DNA of 64,000 nt from Pocillopora verrucosa (lineage: Eukaryota; Cnidaria; Anthozoa; Scleractinia; Pocilloporidae), in assembly GCF_036669915.1 (NCBI RefSeq), contig NC_089314.1, forward strand, positions 28,157,843-28,221,842. The letters run 5' to 3'. A program made the translations under genes and the position numbers. Under the pieces are notes generated by a model that saw only the letters and a program-made list of their open reading frames with translations, was not told the origin of the DNA and ran no database searches. Shown here one piece after another: positions 48,171 through 64,000 of this stretch. Each line of letters opens with the position of its first letter. Within the stretch, counting starts at the first letter, position 1.

Positions 48171-49576
48171 CTGTAAACAACAACAAAAATGTTCGAAATT
48201 ATGGGTCTTTTTGAGCTTAAAACTCTTGAAGTTCATGTTTACAACGAAAGAAATGGAGTGACTTCCTTCTCAGATACCATGATTGCCTCCTGTGTGCCCA
48301 AGAGTCATGATTCATGTCTTTTCGCCCAACCATGACCATCTGATGCAACAGTTTTAACACAGAAGTGTAGTCGGAACTACTCACCAGATTAAAAGGAGAA
48401 ATAGAAACGATGAAACAATAGTTTTATTCGCAATGTGAGTACCGTTCTTCAAATATCATTTTCAATTCCGAAATGGTTCATTAATAATCATCTTAAATTA
48501 GGTCAGCTTTGCTCGGTCTTTTCAAACTTCGAATTTCGAAAACATGACTCTTCAATACTGTTCACTATTGAACTGTGTTTGCACTTCTTTTAAGTGAAAC
48601 AACAAAAAGACTTTCTTGCGGGCTTTTTTCATCAAACATTGTAATGGAATAGAGAAGCGATTCTTCAAAGAGCGTAAACAATAAGTTTCACCCTTGACTT
48701 CCATTAATTTGCTCCCCTGTTGAGAAAGATCTAGACTTTATGCGAGCTTTTCAAAAGTCAGCCTTGCGGCTTAGCTCTGACAATGCTTCCAGACTCCAAC
48801 CAATACATTGACGTATGGCCATGACAATTGTTTCTTTCTTAAACCGTTCTAGATGGAAAATAGATACTTAAAAGCATGCCATGTTAATAGAAATCCGGGT
48901 TTCCTATGGCTATCTCCAAGAATGATAATGGGTAGAAGTATTTTGAGTTCGTGCCTTGGGGGAGGGACAAAGACTTAATTAATCAGAGTAAAGTGCCCTG
49001 TTTTTCAAAGCCTTTTATAGACGCAACGAATAGTTGAGTAAGACAGTAACTTTTGATCTGTTTTCATTAAAAAATAAAGGGCGGAAGTTTCTAAATAAAC
49101 TGTGATATTGCGTCGGTGAGGGAGTATAACAATATAACTTAATTTTATCTACTAAATTGATAATGTAAATTGGCCACCGTAAAGAGTATCCTAGCTGACC
49201 TCTCGAGCGTTAGCGCTTTGTAACATATTACCTTTAAAACCTGACAGAAAATCAGTGCAGGATGTCTGATTACATTAGGCTCCGAGGCTCGAAAGCTAGT
49301 CGAAACAGTTAACAAACTGATCCATGATAAGGCATTCTGGACTATTGTTAAGCGAATTTCGTATCCATCGACGTATCTTTGTGTTAAAAAAGTCTTAAAC
49401 CTAGGATTTAAATGTTGCTTTTAGGTATTTAGCTTCTAATTAACATACCATGACCAAGACTATGAAATCAAAACAGCAAAAAATCCAATAAAAATGGAAC
49501 GCTGAAAGCTTTCGGGGATAAAAAAAAAGGCTAAATGTCTACAAATTTCAATTGTATCGTCTTTATTTGAAAGTCA

Positions 49577-49932
49577 AAAGGGAAAACAGATCATGTTGTA
49601 GGAGTCTTCTTAGGCGTACAACGAGCTAAGTGTTGTTTGAGATTATTTCTCAGGCAAGGCGGGTGCGGCAAATACAGAAGCAAGCTGCCAGAGATTTGTC
49701 AAAGATTTGCGCTTATCGATACCTATAATGGAAAGTATTCAGTGTAAATCATCAAAAGGCAAAACAGATCATGTTATGGGAGCCTTCTTAAGCGTATAAC
49801 GAAGTAAGTGCTCATTAAGATTATTTCCCAGGCGAAGCGGGTGTAGCAAATACAAAAGCGAGTTGCCACAGATTTGTCAAGGATTTTTACTTATCGATAC
49901 CTATCATGGAAGAGATTCAGTGTAAATCATCA
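49577..49932. repeat. Internal 178-bp tandem duplication in array unit 1
   Basis: 'aaaacagatcatgtt' through 'cttatcgatacctat' and 'agtgtaaatcatcaaa' occurs twice with a 178-bp offset. Unit 2 of the array has the block once (near 51635-51800), so the duplication is later than the array. Confidence 0.75.
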
Positions 49933-49943
49933 AATCAACTTAC

Positions 49944-50075
49944 TTGTCAAATCTTCAAAATCTTAGTTTAGTTTCTCGATCAGTCCTTTCGAACTCTCAG
50001 ATTCTCCTGAATAGCTCAGGTGTAGCTGACAACTCTTTGGGGAGTGCCGGTATGTTTGTGAATGAGACTTTTATG
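49944..50075 (-). promoter_or_regulatory. Promoter and non-coding first exon, copy 1
   Basis: On the minus strand there is a CATAAAA box at 50069-50075. About 100 nt of sequence follows ('gtcagctacacctgagc', 'gagaatctgagagttcg'), ending at 49944 in GACAA|GTAAGTTG, a strong splice donor. The next acceptor on this strand in good context is the one at 48170, before the small secreted ORF. Confidence 0.5.
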
Positions 50076-50534
50076 CAGTGAAGCCTGCATCATAAAGAAT
50101 GTCTCATACTATTTAAAAACCTAGAAAAAAGCCTGAGGCAAGATGCATTATAGGATTTCGCCCGACCATGACCATCCGATTCAATAGTTTTGACACAGAA
50201 GCGTAGTTGGAAATATGCATTAGATTTAAAGGAGGATTGGAAAAAAAGAAACAATTATTCTATTTGCAATGAGAGAACCGTTCTTCAAATAGCACTTTCA
50301 ATTTCGAAATGGTTTATTGATATTCCCCTTAAATTAGGTTAGCTTTGCTTGGTCTTTTCAAACTTCGAATTTCGAAAACATGACTCTTCAGAAACTGTTC
50401 ACCACTGAATTGTGCTTAGGGTTAGTGGTGAGTTAGTGGTTAAGCAAACAAATAAAAACATTTTCTTGTAGGCTTTTTCATCAAAAGAGTAAAGGGGGTA
50501 AGTTTCTAATGAAACTGTGGTGCTTTTTGGATGA

Positions 50535-50648
50535 GAGAGAATAACGGGGTAATTTGTGTCATCAACTGAGTTGAAAACGTAAATTGACCAGTTTTTACGG
50601 TGGCCAACTTACGTTTACAACTCAGTTGATAACACTGAATTACCCTTT
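50535..50648. repeat. Palindromic insertion in array unit 2
   Basis: 'tcatcaactgagttg' and 'aaacgtaaattgacca' are followed by the inverse 'tggccaacttacgttt' and 'caactcagttgata'. This gives a near-perfect hairpin with a very short centre. Units 1 and 3 have only one arm at this place. Confidence 0.65.
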
Positions 50649-51814
50649 TTTTTTTTATAAAAAATTGCGTTGGTATAGGGAAACGATTCTTCAAAGAGCG
50701 TGAACAGTAAGTTTTACCCTTGACTTCCATTGATTTACTGCCTTGCTGAGTAAGTTCTAGACTTTATGCGAGCTTATCAAAAGTCAATCTTGAGGTTTCG
50801 CTTTGCCAGTGCTAGAAAACTCCAATCAACACAGGGATGTATGGTCATGAAAATTTTTTCTTTCTGAAACCGTTCCAGATGGAAATAGATACATAAAAGC
50901 ATGTCATGTTAATAGAAATTCGGGTTTCCTGCGGCTATGTCCAAGAATGATTATGGGTAGAAATATTTTGTATTCGTGTCTGGAGGAGGGACAAAGACTT
51001 AATTAATCGACGTAAAGTGGTCTGTTTTTCAAAGCCTTTTATAGACGCAACGAAGAGTGAAGTAAAACAGTAACCATCAATCTGTTTTGATCCAAAAATA
51101 AAGGACGGAAGTTTCTAAAGAAACTGTGGTACTGCGTCGGTGAGGGAGTATAATAATATAACTTACACCGTAAAGAGTATCCAAGGTGACCTTTCGAGCT
51201 TTAGAGATTCGTCAGTCGAATGCTTTACTGAATAAAGGTTTGCTATGACGATCTCAGATAAACAGCTTGACCGGCTCAATGGCATATTACCTTTAAAAAC
51301 TGACAGTAAATTAGTGCAGGATGCCTGTTCTCCGAGGTTTGAAAGCTAGTTGAAACAGTTATAAGCATTGATCCATGATAAGGCAGTCTGAGCTATTGTT
51401 GAGCGAGATTTTTTATACATCGACGCATCTTTGTGTTTAAAATGTCTTAAACCTAGGATTTAAATGTTCCTTTTGGGTATTTAGCATATAATTGAATACT
51501 ATGATCAAGACTATACGGTCAAAACAGAAGAAAATCCAATAAATATGGAACCCTATGAGCTTTGAGAGACGAAAAAAAAATTTTGAATGTCTACAAATTC
51601 CAATTGTATCGTCTTCCTTCGAAAGTCAAAATGCATGACAGATCATGTTGTAGGAGCCTTCTTAGACATATAACGAAGTAAGCGCTCATTCAGATTATTT
51701 CCCAGGCAAGGCGGGTGTGGTAAATATAAAAGCCAGCTGCCAGAGATTTATCAAAGATTTGCACTTATCGATACCTATAATGGGAAAGATTTGCAAATCA
51801 TCAAGTCAACTTAC

Positions 51815-51947
51815 TTGTCAAATCTTCTCAATCTTAGCTTAGTTCCCCGATCAATCCTTTCGAACTCTCAGATTCTCCTGAAATTGCTCAGGTGTAGCTG
51901 GCAACTCTTCGGGGAGAGCAGGTATGTGTGTGAATGAGACTTTTATA
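51815..51947 (-). promoter_or_regulatory. Promoter and non-coding first exon, copy 2
   Basis: It has the same layout as copy 1, but with a consensus TATAAAA at 51941-51947. It ends at 51815 in the same GACAA|GTAAGTTG donor. The TATA box, start region and donor are kept in both copies, which suggests either could work as an alternative promoter. Confidence 0.5.
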
Positions 51948-53710
51948 CAGTGAAGCCTGTATTATAAAGAATGTCTGATACTATTTAAAAACCTAGAAAA
52001 ACGCTTAAGGCAAGATGCGTTAAAGCTTTTCGCCCGACCATCCGATTCAATAGTTTTGACACAGAAGCGTAGTTGGGAATATGCACCAAACTGAAAGGAG
52101 AATTAGAAACGATGAAACAATAGTTTTGTTCACAATGTGAGTACCGTTCTTCTATAGCAATTTCAATTGGGAAATGGTTCATTGATAATCATCTTAAGTT
52201 AGGTCAGCCTTGCTCGGTCTTTTCAAACTTCGAATTTCGAAAACATGACTCTTCAGAAAACCGTTTACTATTGAGTTGTGTTTGTACTTTTTTTAAGCAA
52301 AACAACAAAAAGATTTTCTTGTGGGCTTTTTCATCAAAAATTGCATTGGTATAGAGAGGTGATTCTTCAAAGAGCGTAAACAGTAGTTTCAGCTTTGACT
52401 TCCATTAATTTGCTCCCCTGTCGAAAAAAGTTCTAGACTTTATGCGAGTTTATCAGAAGTCAATCTTGCAGTTTAGCTCTTACAATGTTACAAACTCCAA
52501 CCAACATAGGAACGTATGGCCATGACAATTTTTTATTTCTTAAACCGTTTCAATTGGAAAATAGATACATGAAAGCATGCAATTTTAATAGAAATCCGGG
52601 ATTACTGTGGGTATGTGCAATAATGATTATGGGTAGAGGTATTTTGAGTTCGTGCCTTAGGGGAAGAAAACAAACATTTAATTAATCGAACTGAAGTGGT
52701 CTGATTTTCAAAGCCTTTTATAGACGCAACGAAAAGTTGAATAAAGCACTGACAATTGATCTGTTTTGATCCAAAAAAAATGCAGAAGTTTCAAAAGAAA
52801 CTGTGGTACTGCATCAGTGAGGGAGTATAATAATTAAACTTGGTTTTATCAACTAAGTTGATGATATAAATTGGCCACCGTAAAGAGTATCCAAGTTGAC
52901 CTTTCGAGCATTAGCGCTTCGTCTGTCGAATCTTTTGCCGCATAAAGGTTTGCTATGACCATGTCGGATAGACAGCTCAATCGGCTTCGTGACATATTAC
53001 CTTAAAAAACTGACAGTAAATCAGTACAAGATGTCTGTTTACATGAGCTTACGAGGTTTGAAAGCAAGTAAAGACAATTACATAAACTGATCCACGATAA
53101 GGTAGTCTGCGCTAAAGTTAAGCGAGATTTCGTATTCATCCTCGTATTTTTGTGTTTAAAAAGTCTTAAACCTAGGATTTAAATGTTGCTTTTAGGAATT
53201 TATCATCTAATAGACATACAATGACCAAGACTTTGAAGTCAAAGAAAACATTTTCTTGTGGGCTTTTTTTTCATCAAAATTGTATTGGTATAGAGAAATG
53301 ATTCTTCAAAGAGCGTAAACAACACGTTTCACCCTTGACTTTCATTAATTTGCCCCTTTGTTAAGTAAGTTCTAGACTTTATGCGAGTTTATCGAAAATC
53401 AATCTTGCGGTTTAGCTCTGACAGTGATACCAAACTTTAGCCAACACAGGGATGTATGGCCATGACAATTGTTTCTTTTTTAAACCGTTCCAGATGGAAA
53501 ATAGAGACATGAAAGCATGTCATGTTAGTAGAAATCTGCGATTACTAGGGTTATGTGCAAGAATGATAATGGGTAGAAGTATTTTGAGTTCGTGCCTTGG
53601 GGGAGGGACAAAGACTTCATTAATCTAAGTAAAGTGGCTCGTTTTAAAAGCCTTTATAGACGCAACGAATAGTAAGACAATGACCACTGATCTGTTTTGA
53701 TCCAAAAATA

Positions 53711-54151
53711 TGTATTTCAAGTATGTCACTTATTTTCTTGCAATTTAGACGTCTTCTTCTAAATAGAGGCACGTCAACAGGAAATATGGTATTTTTAATA
53801 ATAAATAAGCAAAACTGTGATTTCGTCTTAGTCTTCGTCATTGCCCATTATTTAGGATAATAATTAGAGGCTGATTATTATTTGATATAAGAACTGTAAA
53901 CATTAAAGAAAGAAACAAACATTTTTCTGTTATTCAACAACCAACCAGTCAGTGCTAGTGCGTTCGGCCAGTGACACGATTCTGTGCCCTTTCCCATCGT
54001 ATGGTATGTCAATAAAATTATGCTTAAAACATCTACTTTATTCTAAAATGATTATAACTTTAAACCAAACGACTGCATCTACCCATGTACAGTCCAACGA
54101 CTCTTTTTCAAGAGACGACTGAAAAATAATGAAACAAAAAGAGCGAGATAA
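53711..54151. other. Stretch between the array and the decayed transposon gene
   Basis: AT-rich DNA; no exon or repeat assigned. Confidence 0.4.
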
Positions 54152-55381
54152 CTACAGACTGAGCAGTTCACTGGTTCTTGAGCAGAGAACGCTCCGCAGC
54201 TCCAAGAAGAGAAGTCCACTCAATTTTTTTTCTGTATTTTTCCACACATTTAAGGGGATTCCTATTGATCTAACTGTCGCCAGAAGTCTATCGAGGTGTT
54301 CCTGTTTTTCTCTTATTAGCAGGTTTGTCTTGTTTTCAGTCTAACACAAAATAAGAACATTTACAAAAGTAAGCTGAATACTGCCATTTTGAGGTTATTT
54401 GAAGATAGTAATTAGTATTGTTTTTACAAAGAAAATCACAAACCTTATCCCAGTCGAGTACTTCTAAAATCAGTCCCCGCTCAAGTCTATCGGTTATTCG
54501 TAGCATTAGGTGAAGCTCATTGATGACTATGTTTTCTGGAGGGATATCGAACAGTGGCAGAGATTAGCATCCAGGTTCTCTTGTCCAATTGGGCCCAAAC
54601 TTTCTCTTCGTGCTTTGGGAATTGTAAGCGTCATAGAAGACAGACATGTTGCACCTACAAGCATAGTTGCACAGTGTTCATTTTTTAATATAGTTATATT
54701 CATGAAACATAGTAACATGTTGATTAACTATTGCAAAAATGTTTTAAAAGTTAATAGTGGTTCTTGCCTGTCTTTAATTTTTTGTGGATTAAACATTAGA
54801 TGAAAGAATTGTTTGATGTTGCCCCTTTCATGCCCATTGCAACTAACAGGAATTATTGTAAAAAGAGAAGAAAAACATTTTAACAGTCACTTTTTAAGCC
54901 ATGATATTTTCTATCTTAAATCAAAAACCATAAAGCACATGGATTTCACTAACCTTGTAGTCACCTCCCAGATGGAAATGTAGGTGAACTTTATTTCCAT
55001 CAATCTCCATGTATCCCTGCTCCACAAGCTTACTTATGGCATATCGGACATTTTTAAACCCCGTGTTAAGGGTCTCATAGTCTTCATATCCTTTAATTAG
55101 TGCAAAGGTATGGTTTCCTGTGAATAATGACACAAGGAACAAAACTAAACGAATGCAACATAATGAAATACAAGTTTGTGCAGTTACCATTGAGTCAAAA
55201 TAATGATATTAATAAATACTACACCTAAAAGCAAGAAGTTACCTGAACTTAACAGCACACACTGACCTTCACCAAGAAGTGAAAATGAACACACAAATAG
55301 GAAGCTTTTATGGGACATTCTCACCCCGTCTCCAGATACTTTAACTTTTACCACAGGCTCTTTGTCAACTGAATTCTTGAG
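54152..55381 (-). pseudogene. Decayed gene of a presumed transposon family
   Basis: Conserved-looking blocks occur in order on the minus strand. Exon from 55381: LLGEGQCVLLSS. Exon about 54952-55122: NHTFALIKGYEDYETLN, then HFHLGGDYK. A block near 54790-54850: AMGMKGATSN. Exon 54444-54654: FYDAYNSQSTKRKFGP, then ENIVINELHLMLRITDRL and LEVLDWDK. Exon 54152-54340: DRLLATVRSIGIPLNVW. This order matches an uncharacterised protein family I have seen repeated in cnidarian and sponge genomes and take to be transposon-derived. There are in-frame stops after GATSNNSFI and at 54564-54566, and the start is missing. It is therefore a fragment without a working product. Confidence 0.55.
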
Positions 55382-55487
55382 CTAAAAACAACAAAGTTAT
55401 TTGTTACGTTTGCTATTGTAAATGACTAACCAAGCACTTCACCAAGTCTCAAGGTCTCCCTCTCTAGTCCCTAAGTAGCATTGTAAA

Positions 55488-55830
55488 TACACTTACATGC
55501 ACTGTAAAATTAAAAGAGCTGATTTGGCCCCAAAAATGGGGCCAAAACGAGTGAGTCCAGTTTGGCACTAGCCTAGGGTCAATTCGGCCCCATTGAAATG
55601 GGGCTGTTTTTGGCACCAATTTTGGGGCTGAATCGACCCCATTGTAGGGGCCAAATTGGACCACGTGAAGGGTGAATTTGAAAACTACAGGGGCCACTTT
55701 GAAATTTATAGGGGCCAAAACAGCCCCCAAAATTTCAGCCCTCTCACAAATGGCCCCTTTAAAAAGAGCCGATTCAGCTCCAATGTGAGTCCAATTCAGA
55801 AGTAGAGGGCTCTTTCCTCTGCACACTGAT
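55488..55830. repeat. GGGGCC-rich inverted-repeat element
   Basis: 'ggccccaaaaatggggcc' is an inverted repeat in itself, and GGGGCC/GGCCCC phrases recur about ten times. The ends are loosely inverted: 'aaaagagctgatttgg' on the left and 'agagggctctttcc' on the right, with 'aaaaagagccgattcagct' inside. It is GC-rich against an AT-rich background and non-coding. Confidence 0.6.
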
Positions 55831-56260
55831 ATCCCCCCTCACAATCAAATAATGAAAATACACCTCATATTTTATCTTTCAAACACTAATTTATTCAGTT
55901 CTAGGTATTGTTACTGTTAAAACCTTTTACAGACCATGATTTTAAAGTTATGAAGAATCTTAGACAAACATTTGAAAGAATAGGACAATACATTTTTAAC
56001 ATTAATGCAACCAGTTTCTAAAATATATCTCTTCACTAAATCAATATACTTCTCAAAATTGCAAACATTGCTAGAAATTTCACATGAGACACTTGTAACT
56101 AAAGCTTCCCTTTTCAATGACTCAGCAAATGTGATAATGTGAGGCAGCTTATAATCAAGACTGACTGAATTTTTTGAAGTACAGAAAATTATCAAAATAA
56201 CACAACCGCAACAAATTGTCCTGCTCCTGCACAAGAGTATAAATCTTGTTTGATTCTACC
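55831..56260. other. AT-rich spacer after the SAM-domain gene
   Basis: It holds an open frame of 105 codons on the minus strand (55917-56234) that is AT-rich, has no recognisable domain and no splice support. It is most likely 3' UTR of the gene upstream. Confidence 0.4.
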
Positions 56261-59200
56261 TCAGGCATTTGCCAAGTCATTGAAAAAGGAGGAAACAGTA
56301 ACAAGAGTCTGCCCACGCCCAATTTCAAGCAATGCTTGCTCTAAAAAAGTCAAAATTGCCTTTGACTGATTGTAGGAGACATTAAAAACATAAAATGAGC
56401 CAAGTAACCCAATGACAGCATCAATAATTTTTTCTTGTGGGAGCTGACAAATAATACTCCCCTCTGTGACTATATACAGGAGATCAATGTCATAAATATC
56501 TCCAACAATAACAATTTGTGGCTGGATGTAATCTATAACTGCTGAATCAACATCAGCTTCTCTCTGCAATAAAAACAAATTTTACAACCATATTAAAAAC
56601 AAGCCAAAGTGCAAAGGAGCATCAAAATTACTGGCTAGTCTGCTGGGTTCAGTTGGTCACTTTACCCTCATTTAATTTTACTCAAATGATATATATGTGG
56701 GATGTTTTTCTAAAACTATAAGCCAAAACATTAAAAAAGGAAGTGGAAATTTAGCTCAATGCTTTTAATTTGTCTTCCCTTCAAGCCTTGAAAAATACTA
56801 CACGACTCCCAAAGTATCTGCGCATATCACAAATGTACATGTGGGGTGTTCAACCCCCAGGAAAAAGACATCAACTATTCCATGTGCAGTATTTATCTTA
56901 TGGTTTGACTACAGCAAAATTTTTTTTAAAAAAAATTGCTAAATCACAATAATGGAAAAAAAGAAGGAAAATAAATACAACCCCAAAGTACTTGAAGCTT
57001 AGTATCTGGACTTCATAGCAAATGGGCTCAGTAATTTTAGCTGTTCTGTAGTATTTTTGTACCTAAGTAGCAGTTTTTATAAACTCCTACCTCCAAAATG
57101 GTCACAACTTCTTCTTGAAGTCCCCTTTTCTTTCCACTCCGCTGGCGCAGAACTTTGTTGATGACCAGCAGGGATGTCCTACTTTTAATTTCTGTAATTT
57201 AAATACAGAACAATTTGTTTTTTGTGAAAGTGGGAGACATTAACCCCTATATAACAGCATACTTTCCAATCTAGCAGTCTTGATAAACTCTCCTTAAAGC
57301 CAGGGCTTATACAAGTTGTAAAATCAAAGGTGACTTCTAATCAGGTGTCTGTGACAGCAGCAGAATGTTTTACACAAGTTAAGGTATAATACTTCTTTGT
57401 AAATGATTGAAAACCTCATTTTTACCTTCTCTGTTGCATCCCTCTTCACTAAGGGCAGCTTCCATTCCATCCATTACCTCATTGACCACCTTATCTTTGC
57501 TAGCAGCAGCATATTTTAGGATATGCTGCTGCCACATAAGGTATTTTTCCCGCAATTTGGTTGGGATGTTATCATCATTGAATATTCTACACAGCTCAGC
57601 TTTTAACTGCATTGAAAGGTAAGGCAGAAAACATAACATGTAAGTCGTCTTACTTGTCCGATGAATCTACTCTAGAGGTATTCATAACCACATGTGTACT
57701 GAGAATCCAGAGAGAGAAATGCTGTTCTTAAGGACTGTTCATGCCCTTAATAGGAACACAAATATATTGGTAAGGAACTTGCCTTTCATACACACAAAAT
57801 CCCTCTTCCCCCATTAAGAAAAAAATTAGTACAATTGGGAAGCATATCATTTAAAAGTATTGGACTGCAATCTCTGACAGGTACCCTAGTATCAGCCAAA
57901 AGTTGGCCAAAAAACAAACAAACAAACCTGTAACTGGTTTAGATTTCTGACAGATACAAGCAATTTACAGCTAATACTTACATGGATGAAGTATTTCAGA
58001 GATGGGTACTCCATCAACACAGCCTTCACCAATTTAGGGGCAGTTATGATTTCATGGCGGCGGAGGGGGAATGTTTTATCCATGAAATCCTTATGAGCTT
58101 TGTGCTTTCGGTGGTTTCTCCTGACTTCATTGCGATTTTCCTCAGCAAAGGCTTTTAAAGTTGCCAGAGTCTCACCTGCAGGTAAGTCTGGCTGCTGTGC
58201 CCAAATACTGAAATCTTTTTTTTGCCTTTTGGCCTTAGAGGGACCAGCTTCAGCAGGATTGGCTGGATGTTTAGGTTTTTGGATTTTTTTCATCCTGTTG
58301 AAAATCTTGACCTCCAAATAGCCCTGGAAAAGGGTCAGGACATTGCATAAATTAATGCCTAATTTTTTTGCACATTTGTTAGTAAACTTTACTCAACTAA
58401 TGATATTACTTTCAATGTGTGGAGTTCACATCATCTAAAGTTTTTCAGTTGGCACTTTATTCTGCCCCTTTCCCACTCTGTGCCTCCTGGCTGAACACTA
58501 CACATCTAATTCTATGGTAGATATGTGTTATAATTATTGGTAACAGCCAATCACACTTAAGAACTTAAAAGATCAGAGTGATTACTCTGCACCTTCTAAG
58601 TTTAAGCCAAGAAATTCAGCACAAAAATTTCTATTTTTACCATAAGTAGAAGAAGCAAACTGATAGATTTTTAAAATTTACTAACCCATTCAGTGTCTGA
58701 GTCAACTAGTTTCTTGCCAGCCATACATGGATACTCTTCAACAATTTTTTTAGCTATCCATTGCCTCTCAGAGCACTTTGGGTGGCTGGTGAAGTGGTTG
58801 ATGCTTGTACAAACATCCCGGACCAATTCACTTTTCTGGTTTGCACTGAGGTATCCCTCCTGGATACCTAACTCTACTGAGGCAGAGAACTGTAAAAAAA
58901 GTAAACAAATGAACAAATTTATTTGTCGTTGGAGAACAGTAATTTTTGTGACTAAAAAGTTTCCATAAATGTAAACAAACTGTGCATAAAAGAGAAAAAA
59001 CATAATCATACCTCGATGATATCAATAATTTACTTTCACCAAACTATGTACTTATCGAGAAAGGAAATCATACTCCTAGGCACTTCAGTTTTCATGAATT
59101 AACAAGGATTGCTTAAAAAAACTAAATAAAAAAAAAACGGAAAAGTTTCTTACTCTCGATGGAAGCTGGAACTTTGATAGCCATCCAAGAGGAAGCTATA

Positions 59201-60307
59201 GGTAGAAATATTTTTTGAATAAATTAGACTGTCTGATAACATGTTATCAATTAAGTAATTTTTAATTTACCGAATTCACACATTAGGTTTACTTTGTTTT
59301 ATGCATAGTGGACGTAAATACATATCTAGTATATTTCAATAAAAATTAGCAGATCTCACCGTTTTTGACGGCTGTTTTCCCCGACATTTCTCTTCTTTAA
59401 CGGACCAACTGGCACCTTGTGTTTTTTCCTTTGGGGTAAAATAGGAAGAAAGGAATTGATAATGTACTCTTCACTATCCAGCCATCTTCACCATCTTACC
59501 CCATAAGAACTTACTTTAGCAATGCCCAGTTCTATCGCCTCGTCCATGATACAAAAATCCTTGGGAGATTTTCCCTTTTCATTGGGTGTCGATGTTAGTT
59601 CTAAATTTTCATCATCGCTGGTGTTTTGTGAATCGTCAGTCGACGTGTAAAACGAATTGCTCGTAGAACTTGATTCTGCACACTGAAGGAGAAAGAGCAA
59701 AAAATTCAGCTTAATTGGAGACAAACTAAGATATGGACATAAAAATAACAATTAATTTTTTTAAGGACAAGTTTAAGAATTCGGAGTGAGGAATCCTAAA
59801 ATCAGAGAGTCTTGAAAGAAGTCAAGTTCATCTTGTGCAAATGCAGTATCCGTTTTGAATTGTAACCGTCTCTATCTCTCGGCGCCAAAATGAGAACACA
59901 TGACTTTAGTTGTGAAACCGCTGAGAGTCAGGGGAATCACGCATGCGTCAAATTCTTTGGCGGGAAAATTAATTATCTTACCGACGAAGAACTCGCACCA
60001 TCTCTAGGTTCAGCGTTCATCAAGATCAATTTCTTGAATTTTAGTCGCTCTTTTACTAAGGGAAAGTAGTGCCTCAGTTCTTCTACATATTGGACAATGC
60101 CGAGGAGATCTTCACCGTCCAAACCGTCCTTTTCTGCAAGATAAGATACGAACAAAGATCAGTGAAGGAGTCAAGTTTGTGTACATAAAATTGCAATAAA
60201 ATGTGTTGTTAAGCAAATTTCTTTCGCTTACCTATCCTCTCTAAAGTCTCTGGAGAAAATCCATGCGACTGGAGCCAAGAAACAACCTCCTCACCACTGT
60301 AGTTCAT
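56261..60307 (-). CDS. SAM-domain protein, SAMD3-like, complete
   Basis: Ten exons close in frame to 545 aa: 60232-60307, 59982-60133, 59515-59682, 59360-59428, 59154-59195, 58686-58889, 57982-58323, 57426-57606, 57091-57191 and 56261-56563. The N-terminus is a SAM domain, residues 1 to about 65 (VVSWLQSHGFSPETLERI ... GLDGEDLLGIV). A serine/threonine- and acid-rich linker follows. The middle (GYLSANQKSELVRDVC, QWIAKKIVEEYPCM) resembles the region of SAMD3 that follows its SAM domain. A basic segment, MKKIQKPKHPANPAEAG, may direct it to the nucleus. The C-terminal block (IVIVGDIYDIDLLYIVTEG, VFNVSYNQSKAILTFLEQ) recurs in uncharacterised animal proteins of this type. Biochemical function is unknown. 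It is divergent from, and 259 bp away from, the zinc-finger gene. Such proteins form lineage-specific expansions, which fits either a mobile or a fast-duplicating origin. Confidence 0.85.
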
Positions 60308-60566
60308 TATTGAGTCCGACGCACGAGGTCTAGCTAGGTTCGTTCGACTAATGAGATACGAAGAAGGAGCTGCAGAGAAGCACCAGCAAAAGAAGGACGA
60401 ATTTTGGAGGGAAATCGCTTTTATAACAAAATTTTAATCATTAAAAAGTTCACAGTTTTAAGTTGAGTAAACCAATCGTTAGCTGCGGTTTCGTTCGAGT
60501 TAAAGATCTACCAGTTTACCCCTCAACATTCCCGAATCCCTACGTCCTTGTGGCGTTTAAGTTGTG
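60308..60566. promoter_or_regulatory. Putative bidirectional promoter of the SAM / zinc-finger pair
   Basis: Only 259 bp separate the two divergent start codons and no TATA box is clear on either side. Shared transcriptional control is inferred from spacing. Confidence 0.55.
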
Positions 60567-63500
60567 ATGGGTATTCCGTGTAACATGTGCAATGCTGTCC
60601 TTGACAATTTTGGACTAGTTATCAGCCATTTCAGGCGGGTACATAGAGAAGATCCTAATTTCTTTGTTACATGTGGCATTAATGGATGTGGAAGAACTTA
60701 CAAGAAATTTTATGGGTACAGAAGTCACGTACACAGAGTGCACAGAGGATTTCTACGAGTTGCACGTGACGTTAAACAACCTCAGGATTTAGTGCAAGAT
60801 ATTGAGCCTGAAGAGCAAGCTGGTGATTTGCTTATTGATGAAGCACTTTTTGAAGAAGACAAAGACGATATCCAAAATGAACAGTTAAGAAACACGAGTG
60901 CAGCATATCTTTTGCGAATCAAGGAAACACACAATCTCTCACAAAAAGCTTTGGATGACATTGTACAGAGTACCAGTTCTCTTGTCTCTACTGCTGTTAA
61001 GTCAGTATGTATAAATATTGCCAATAAGCTTTTGAATATGGAGGAAGAGGAAAATCATGTGATACAAAACATAACATGGCAAACTTTATTTGAGGAAAAT
61101 TCTGAGAAGGCAAGCCCATTTCAAAACCTTGAAACAGAAAATAGACAAAAACGAGCATTTAAAGAAATCTTTGGTCTTGTTGTAAGTATAAGAAATTAAG
61201 TATATTGTACAATTTAGGATTTCCTTGTTAATAGTAAGGGAGTAAATCACTATTTTAATGAAAAGAAAAGCACCTTAACATACAGCTGTTAAAGACACCA
61301 AATTCTGCTTACAATGTTCAAACATGCCTAAACAATTTATAGTTGTAATACCAGAGACAGAAATGTGCAGTCTTTTCTCTTGTTTTATACCAGCTAGGGC
61401 TATGCTTGAACCAGCTAGCTAGGCTAACTTAGATGTCTCTGTACCAGTATGATATTTTGTTGGAATGTAATAAATCAACATGCATTATGTAATGTCCCCT
61501 GAACAGGAACCTGTGAAACGTGTGCTTGGAAACTTCCATGGTCATCGACAGAAAGGTCCAAAAAGAAGAAGGGTTCAACTAAATGATGAAGTCATTGAGA
61601 TCCCTCTTCTTGAAAGTTTAGAGCAGTGGTTGAACAACCCCTCAATTTTGAAACAGGTAAACAGAAATTATGGTGAAGTCAATCTACACTTTACCATACT
61701 TGTTTTATCATAGGGGAACTTAGTTTTATGTGGACCAGTTCTTTAACTTGTGGGAATTTGCCTAGCTGGTAATTTTCCATTACTTTGCCCAGTGGTATTC
61801 TTAAATTTTGATAAAGGTGGAATGTTAAATGTGGTGATTTATTTGTAAATTCTTACGAATTGTTTCTGAACAGGTGGAAAACTCACATCAACGACATGAT
61901 GAGATGATTGCTGATTATTGTGATGGTCAGGTTTACCGCCAGCACCCTCTTTTCTCTAGGGACCCACATGCTTTACAGATTATATTGTATTATGATGATG
62001 TTGAAGTTGTGAATCCACTGGGCAGCAAAACCTCAAAACATAAAGTTGGTAATGAGATATTTTTATTTCACTATACTGTCACAAGTCATGAGACATTCAT
62101 ACATGTACCTCAGAGAGTAAGGAAAGGCATTTAGGTGTAGTTGTTTCACAATTAAGATTCAACCAGTTCAGATACTTATTTGATGTCATAATCAATTAAC
62201 CTTTGTAAGCATACTAAATGTTGCATACTATTTTAGGCGTTTTTTACTATACTCTTGGGAATATTGACCCTAAGCACCGATCCCAGCTAAAGGCAATGCA
62301 GCTTCTGGCAATTGCAAAGAGAACTGTGATCAAGAAGTATGGATGCAATGAAATTCTTCAAACATTCATGACAGAGCTCAATCAGTTAGAGCAGGTGAGA
62401 GTTAAATAATGACCACAGTGTGCAGTACATTCAATATCTGTTGTAGAGTAAACTGAAAGTATAGAAATGCAACAGACTTTAAAAATGTTGTACCAGTCTT
62501 ATTTGTATTGTATATATTGGACAGATCAGGGCTTGACTATCAACATTCTTTTTTTTTATTTGATCTATATTTATTTCCTAAGGATGGAGGATACCAGTTT
62601 ATCATAAATGGGGAAAGAAAGTCTTTGAGAGGAACCATCAGCTTTGTTTCTGGTGATAATTTGGCATCCCAGGAGATTGGAGGCTTTAAAATTGGAAGCT
62701 GTTCTGCACTGAAGTGCAGAGTTTGCATGGGAGATGCAAATGATGTGGCTTCAAAGGTAATATAATAAAATAAAAGATGAACTATTTTTCCACTGACAAT
62801 ATAATAAGTTTTGTCAATCTACATGCAGCTGTCTAAATCTCTTCCCATTCACTTTGCACTCTGCTGCCTACTCATAAGTTTTTTTCTAGGCTTTTGCTCA
62901 TTGTGATAACTTTTGGCTTAACTTTCCCAGCAGCCATGTGAGAACCATTCTATGTGGAACCAAAGATACTCCCCTCTATTAATGATTAAACCACCTGATC
63001 CTGTGACTTACCATGAAAAAACTGTGTTGTAAATCGTGTCTTATAGAGTTTGTAATTGAAGAGTGGTGTTGAAATCCAATAACTTTCTCATTATTCCCCA
63101 CAGTTTGTGGAAGACGATTTCCAATTACGCACCAAAGCAATGTATGATCAGCAGTGCACAGCCATTGAAAATTCAGCCATTGACATTTCTTCACAGTTTG
63201 GAATAAATCTGAGATCAGCCCTGAACCAGTCACGATACTTCCATGTCATAGAAGGTCTTCCGGGTGATGCAATGCATGATGTCCTTGAGGGGCTTCTTCA
63301 ATATGAAGTCAAAGAACTCCTCAAATATGCTATATATGAGCAGCAGTTTTTCACTTTGGAAAATTTAAATTGTTGGATTAAAAATTTTGATTATGGTTAT
63401 CCAGATGTTTCCAACAAACCATGTGTTATATCAAGTGCCACCCTAAATTCCAACACTAATTCTCTCAAACAAAAAGGTAAAATTGCATTATTAGTAGCTT

Positions 63501-64000
63501 CATTCGTACAACATGCTTTATCCAGAGATACAGTCTTAGCTTTGAAATCATTGCTTGTAACTCTGACACAAGATACATTCGTCATCATTGCATTGTCACC
63601 CTAGTGTACACTGTTAGTATTAATTTTGTACACAAAAGGCTGTCTTTTTGTCCATTTTTATTGTTATGGTAATATTTGAACTGCAAGTTACAGTAATTCA
63701 AAATTTTCCAAACATTTGCCATGTGTTTAACATCATGATCCTACCATTCTGGTATATTTTTTAAAAGTAGTGGAATATTTTGGTAAATGATCAATGGCAC
63801 CGATACATATATATATTTTATTTATTTCACTCATGAAATTGATAAAACTGTGTTTTGGTAGCTCTGTTGATCATAATGTGATTTTAGCTTCACAGATGTG
63901 GTGCCTTGGCCGTTTCCTTCCATTGATGATGGGCAGCCATATCCCTCGTGATGATGAGAAGTGGGGTCTCTTCTTAAATCTTTTGGAAATAGTGGACATT
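60567..64000 (+). CDS. Two-zinc-finger protein of a presumed transposon-related family, 3' end cut by window
   Basis: Seven exons, all in frame: 60567-61181, 61507-61656, 61874-62048, 62237-62394, 62583-62756, 63104-63476 and 63888-64000 (continuing). At least 585 aa. The N-terminus has two C2H2 fingers: CNMC-x12-H-x4-H at residues about 5-26, and C-x4-C-x12-H-x4-H after it (CGINGCGRTYKKFYGYRSH). Then follow an acidic linker, a basic HRQKGPKRRR stretch, and a large domain. Its blocks are DYCDGQVYRQHPLF, LYYDDVEVVNPLGSK, FYYTLGNIDPKHRS, LKCRVCMGD, RYFHVIEGLPGDAMHDVLEG and SQMWCLGRFLPLMMGS. This order is shared with uncharacterised multi-copy proteins of fish, molluscs and cnidarians. The aspartates in YYDD and GDAMHD could be catalytic if it is RNase H-like, but that is a guess. 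No stop or frameshift is present. The upstream GTG at 60564 is in frame but the ATG is preferred. Confidence 0.8.

Follow-up and report, generated by a model that had tools for sequence, protein, structure and literature searches.

The stretch of Pocillopora verrucosa DNA described here (64,000 nucleotides, C3:28157843-28221842, where C3 is contig NC_089314.1 of assembly GCF_036669915.1; hereafter the window) carries on its right-hand side two multi-exon genes in head-to-head orientation, one for a protein with a SAM domain and the other for a putative transposase with zinc fingers. The SAM gene lies on the minus strand (56261..60307; 10 exons, 545 amino acids). The transposase gene, on the plus strand, starts at 60567 and is cut by the window's edge at 64000, with exons 1-6 and part of exon 7 inside; in full, it has 10 exons, extends to position 65497 and specifies 847 amino acids. 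Positions beyond 64000 are extended coordinates, i.e., the window was lengthened with stretch L009. Exon borders were set by eye, all introns so defined being GT..AG; after splicing, each gene has an uninterrupted frame between its ATG and its stop codon. Exactly 259 bp separate the two start codons (60308..60566), and the first-pass annotation of this DNA, which spoke of two intact multi-exon genes head to head with an interval of that size, was correct on this point; the spacer presumably acts as a shared two-way promoter.

The pair is very probably best explained as the gene complement of a DNA transposon that is autonomous, has moved recently by cut-and-paste and belongs with the CACTA/EnSpm (Transposase_21) elements of animals. 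The whole transposon runs from 55500 to 66365 (10,866 bp) and ends 2.4 kb beyond the window's right edge; 55500..64000 is its left part, and its right end corresponds to L009:2865 (genome C3:28224207). These limits follow from the ends, the flanks, a second full copy on contig C11 and an empty site. The earlier proposal of a two-gene mobile element is supported by common ends, terminal inverted repeats (TIRs), 2-bp target-site duplications (TSDs), the empty site and the near-identical second full copy, and the supported verdict includes the CACTA-like kind and the SAM-domain partner. The superfamily and the exact ends are additions to that proposal.

Termini, target sites and copies

The element is bounded by inverted repeats of the form CACTGTAAAAT. 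The left TIR, CACTGTAAAATTAAAAGAGC, occupies 55500..55519 (plus strand); the right one, at 66346-66365, is the inverted repeat GCTCTTTTCATTTTACAGTG and reads CACTGTAAAATGAAAAGAGC from the end inwards. CACTA/EnSpm-type termini start with CACTA or CACTG, and CACTGTAAAATnAAAAGAGC stands at both ends here; in two short copies, one of the ends departs from CACTG by a single base. TG adjoins the TIR on either side, at 55498..55499 on the left and at 66366-66367 on the right. Searched against the genome (353 Mb in 52 contigs), the left 331 bp gave at least 41 matches, 32 of which begin exactly at base 1, and the right 301 bp at least 42, with 36 from base 1; in both searches, the best candidates were scored and some matches are fragments of one place. 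Extension beyond 64000 and alignment of the copies, as the first-pass annotation had advised, thus yielded common ends, TIRs and TSDs and ruled out a single fixed locus.

Repeats like GGGGCCAAATTGG are present in the left subterminal region (55500..55849) and recur in the last 330 bp at the right end. Within the left 350 bp there are four instances of the word GGGGCCAA or its complement, and as many within the right 330 bp, with none in the other 10.2 kb of the element or in the window's first 55.5 kb. When three mismatches were allowed, GGGGCCAAATTGG was found at 8 and 9 sites at the two ends versus 3 and 6 in the two controls. Subterminal repeats at both ends are typical of CACTA/EnSpm elements; in plants, it is to these repeats that TNPA binds. 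The GC-rich inverted repeat at ~55500-55830, initially listed as a neighbouring element, is actually the transposon's own left end.

Target sites were compared in 20 copies, i.e., the two full copies and 18 shorter ones whose ends could both be paired from the lists of end matches. In every one of the 20, the same dinucleotide stands on either side (TA in nine, TG in six, CA in four and AA in one), while identity of 2-bp flanks is expected by chance in ~7% of cases per copy under the base composition assumed. A 3-bp duplication was considered and rejected; the third base is not consistently shared between the flanks.

The insertion itself can be traced at C3:28235661-28236053. The joined flanks (400 bp, with the element and one TG taken out) match this site end to end at 97% identity, and the 120 bp surrounding the junction are identical, with a single TG (in stretch L010). 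The site belongs to a nearby paralogous stretch, 11.6 kb away from the element; identity is 97% along 4.5 kb to the left and 98% along 0.5 kb to the right. Since the element is missing from this paralogous site, where TG occurs once, insertion is directly shown. The insertion point, read by eye, is where a coding-like exon of an older gene ends, immediately before GTAAGT.

The second full copy (C11:1980100-1990968) has its own TA duplication. Five pieces spanning the whole element are 100, 99.88, 100, 99.73 and 99.79% identical between the two; base by base, there are two mismatches over part of exon 2 and exons 3-10 of the transposase gene and one over exons 4-9 and part of exon 10 of the SAM gene, all without indels, and the remaining exons are within a stretch of 100% identity (rounded). 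C12 carries three copies, for which comparison of long pieces gave ~97-99% identity. Two of them did not transpose independently: they have one and the same right-end flank, “gtcaatgttcagcta”, and therefore result from segmental duplication. When the stretches retrieved were searched for exact matches to CACTGTAAAAT, no left ends of C12 copies were found.

As calculated from end coordinates, 16 of the 18 shorter copies are 3.3-4.7 kb long, and the other two measure 12.3 and 13.2 kb. These two (C13:5790321-5802624 and C11:9254728-9267914) have paired ends and TA duplications, are much longer than others of their group (~4 kb), and are perhaps nested insertions. A pair of short copies at C11:18735551-18743779 is arranged head to head; ~110 bp separate their left ends, and each copy has a TA duplication of its own. 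We also noticed another set of copies that look older and are not the 4.1-kb derivatives; they are 72-75% identical to window positions 59800-60633, a section that comprises SAM exons 1-3, the spacer and the start of transposase exon 1 (C3:17.63, C1:33.88-33.92, C6:5.76, C4:10.99, C5:7.21, C11:2.41 and C11:18.12 Mb).

The putative transposase and its relatives

Two C2H2-like fingers are visible in the zinc-finger protein (C5/C8/H21/H26 and C36/C41/H54/H59). Further along, the proposed catalytic residues are D296 in a YYDD motif (codon at 61994..61996), invariant in the three-row alignment A1 and paired by hhalign with a D in L098; D479 in DAMH (63266..63277), where it forms part of a DxxH motif; and E649 (extended 64353, beyond the window). 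There is also a CxxC motif (C411, C414; 62715..62726). All are on the plus strand. The CxxC and DxxH motifs (C411/C414 and D479/H482) are located between the catalytic residues, which is a defining trait of the CACTA-Mirage-Chapaev (CMC) group.

We compared the protein with three Pfam-recognised Transposase_21 open reading frames (ORFs) from the same genome, all long open frames. A profile of three family members scored 63.0, 50.3 and 33.9 bits against them, the best of 94 shuffled, reversed or unrelated control sequences attaining 0.3 bits, and the window core alone reached 28.2 bits with the best of the three. The hhalign alignment with a Transposase_21 protein (99.4%) pairs D296 with D, DAMH with DPMH, the FE of E649 with FE, and CxxC with CxxC. 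These comparisons support the prediction that the gene product is a DDE transposase homologous to Transposase_21 proteins, direct Pfam membership excepted; what had been described as a transposase-like feel thus takes shape in DDE residues and a CxxC motif that align with members of that family. Relative L029 in the same genome is 29% identical over 630 aligned positions. It has a G at the position of D479 while the near copy L030 has D, and L029 is for that reason probably decayed. A search of viral contigs with one transposase exon found no relative.

Transposase_21 matches number 28 in the genome. Fifteen are on C5, 13 of them within 2.5 Mb (C5:17.36-19.89 Mb).

The SAM-domain partner and a sister family

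Places with SAM genes were counted by the core exon, and SAM-gene places devoid of it were left out. So defined, there are five places of the window type and six of a sister type, and in all 11 the SAM core exon is on the opposite strand from a transposase, divergent from it and 5.1-11.0 kb away; a random point has a 0.15% chance of falling within 15 kb of any of the 18 transposase places. The SAM protein is, thus, the usual partner of the transposase, and within this genome the two families are adjacent and divergent rather than scattered independently.

In the sister family, the transposase core is 46% identical to that of the window family. Five of its six copies have transposase exons of equal or near-equal scores, and two of these five are 99.7% identical in DNA over 13.8 kb; over 11 kb, the sixth copy, at C11:21.48 Mb, shows 98.7-98.9% identity with them, its exons matching less well. 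The one sister copy in which the target site was examined measures 14,470 bp, with CACCGC[T/A]AAAAAA ends and a CA duplication. Both ends are present in the copy at C1:2.10 Mb; the left end of the one at C1:20.96 Mb was sought and not found, and seems lost.

The sister partner has a SAM domain above the Pfam cut-off (SAM_1, E = 7.2e-9; 36.3 bits vs. 23; two exons joined by hand), followed by a protein kinase, and then by the core and last exon that it has in common with the window protein (22% identity in the core, alignment A2, and 27% in the last exon). The kinase, situated between SAM and common core (Pkinase, E = 2.4e-22, likewise with two exons joined by hand), has VAVK, HND and DFS motifs and lies on the minus strand of L041+L042 (C1:20959000-20978999), at ~5654-4744 of the joined stretch. 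For the window SAM protein, the best match among solved structures had E = 0.72, with none better. A Pfam scan named nothing TNPA-like in it, no direct sequence comparison with TNPA being made.

Relation to known elements and the role of the second protein

Several observations weigh against the interpretation as an autonomous two-gene CACTA/EnSpm transposon. In Pfam, the window transposase does not match Transposase_21, nor does its core at E values up to 10, and L029 matches Transposase_21 (E = 5.2e-4) and, further along, DUF4218 (E = 1.2e-4) below the curated cut-offs in both cases. The SAM domain of the window protein falls just short as well (SAM_3, E = 2.8e-4; 21.2 bits for a cut-off of 22.6); of the SAM domain and two C2H2 fingers annotated at first, both are discernible, but domain and fingers alike remain below Pfam cut-offs. 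A plant-type 3-bp TSD is found in none of the 20 copies. At C12:7.48 and 7.52 Mb, left-end sequence adjoins transposase exons, and these copies are consequently rearranged. Seven of the 18 transposase places are without a SAM-core match (C6:6.05, C4:14.33, C12:7.48, C12:7.52, C6:16.62, C3:14.13 and C9:11.44 Mb). At C6:6.05, SAM exons are nevertheless detected as DNA, and C4:14.33 has a SAM remnant on the opposite strand; at C3:14.13 (C3b) and C9:11.44 (C9a), tblastn found no SAM partner. The 4.1-kb copy L081, the only short copy read whole, has both ends and decayed SAM exons but no transposase and is a typical non-autonomous derivative. DNA of the first SAM exons occurs in many other short derivatives; these copies, having SAM exons without the core exon, would go against the count of 11 out of 11 if included.

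Animal relatives of CACTA elements are already in print since SmTRC1, to which the SAM-partnered element adds a variant. Plant CACTA elements are described, in the passages of PMC4158355 that concern them, as ending in CACTA, with 3-bp TSDs, and as encoding a transposase and a second ORF that aids excision and transposition in specific families. The element resembles plant CACTA/En-Spm (TNPD and TNPA) in its CACT ends, its two proteins, a putative DDE transposase related to Transposase_21/DUF4218 and subterminal repeats, but differs by its 2-bp TSD, by head-to-head genes where plants have one transcription unit, by the SAM domain in the partner and by the C2H2-like fingers on the transposase. 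For SmTRC1 and animal TRC elements (DeMarco et al. 2006), the relevant passages of PMC1636069 report 2-bp duplications in seven of 14 copies, CCC ends, and accessory proteins that arise by alternative splicing and have no detectable relatives. Like these, the element described here is animal and Transposase_21-related, with a 2-bp TSD, spliced transcripts (gene models in our case) and a proposed TNPA-like protein. The starts are different, CCC in TRC versus CACTG here and CACCG in the sister family, so that the TRC type of end is not found, and the passages on TRC mention accessory proteins from alternative splicing and no SAM partner. Animal EnSpm entries of Repbase probably belong to the same superfamily, and close relatives may be among them. 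In the open literature, of which the longer listings were covered in part and with Repbase and closed journals outside, we found nothing that ties CACTA/EnSpm elements to a SAM domain or SAMD3 to transposons.

The role of the second protein is unclear outside a few plant CACTA elements. By analogy with these, the SAM protein most likely plays TNPA's part, being like TNPA in function and perhaps not in sequence. In the mechanism we propose, the zinc-finger transposase (TNPD-like) would cut at the CACTG ends and insert the element at YR dinucleotides; the SAM protein would bind the subterminal GGGGCCAAATTGG repeats, pair both ends of the element by polymerisation of its SAM domain, and recruit the transposase. 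Both genes would be driven from the 259-bp spacer, and the shorter copies, most of which (16 out of 18) measure 3.3-4.7 kb, would be non-autonomous derivatives mobilised in trans. A cutting enzyme associated with a SAM self-association protein would be an unusual partnership for a CACTA-type transposon, and a polymer-forming SAM domain, if confirmed, a simple answer to the question of how ends are paired. With a complete, recently active two-protein CACTA-like element with exact ends in an animal-type genome, the role of the second protein can be addressed using a defined pair.

The SAM protein could also be a passenger or a defence-evasion factor (e.g., against silencing or DNA damage responses), with the transposase working alone. 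We regard this as rather unlikely. DNA binding by the SAM protein is hypothetical, the transposases of C3b and C9a are without a detectable SAM partner, and the kinase in the sister family's SAM protein, with its VAVK, HND and DFS motifs, would fit a signalling or host-directed role; it would also be an unusual cargo for a DNA transposon, that of a signalling enzyme. On the other hand, the pairing at all 11 places extends across two families with transposase cores 46% identical, and a two-ORF anatomy is usual for CACTA elements.

Assignment to another branch of the CMC group (e.g., Mirage-like) instead of CACTA/EnSpm proper is less likely again. Mirage elements have 2-bp TSDs, as the element has; the window protein has no direct match to Transposase_21, and the sister termini are CACCG. 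Against this stand the CACTG ends and the 63 bits of the family profile against Transposase_21 proteins, and 2-bp TSDs are made by animal CACTA relatives as well, according to the TRC passages of PMC1636069. A domesticated host gene pair of transposon descent, also entertained in the first-pass annotation and in keeping with intact frames and complex gene structures, is highly improbable for this copy, given the empty site, the TSD, the presence of two full copies that are almost identical and have unrelated flanks, and five near-identical sister copies.

Within the interpretation as a two-gene CACTA/EnSpm transposon, a broader possibility is more speculative. The SAM protein might be an ancient second component of the animal CACTA-like lineage, polymerising on subterminal repeats, of which vertebrate SAMD3 and the fish SAMD3-like families would be remains or domesticated descendants, with one branch having captured a protein kinase; we consider this doubtful. 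It starts from vertebrate SAMD3 and “SAMD3-like” proteins, which have an N-terminal SAM domain and a core of the YPT...YPFL..G.GY..W type that may resemble that of the SAM protein. If true, the resemblance would indicate a likely origin for a human gene of little-known function.

The surroundings of the element had been annotated as containing a decayed gene of another presumed transposon family; coding-like exons exist there, to the left, but the three pieces of this neighbouring gene that were scanned against Pfam gave no match. The element sits within an array of paralogous repeats of the unnamed coding-like gene, which covers window positions 48334-55499, extended positions 66366-73424 and L010, in stretches that are ~80-99% identical.

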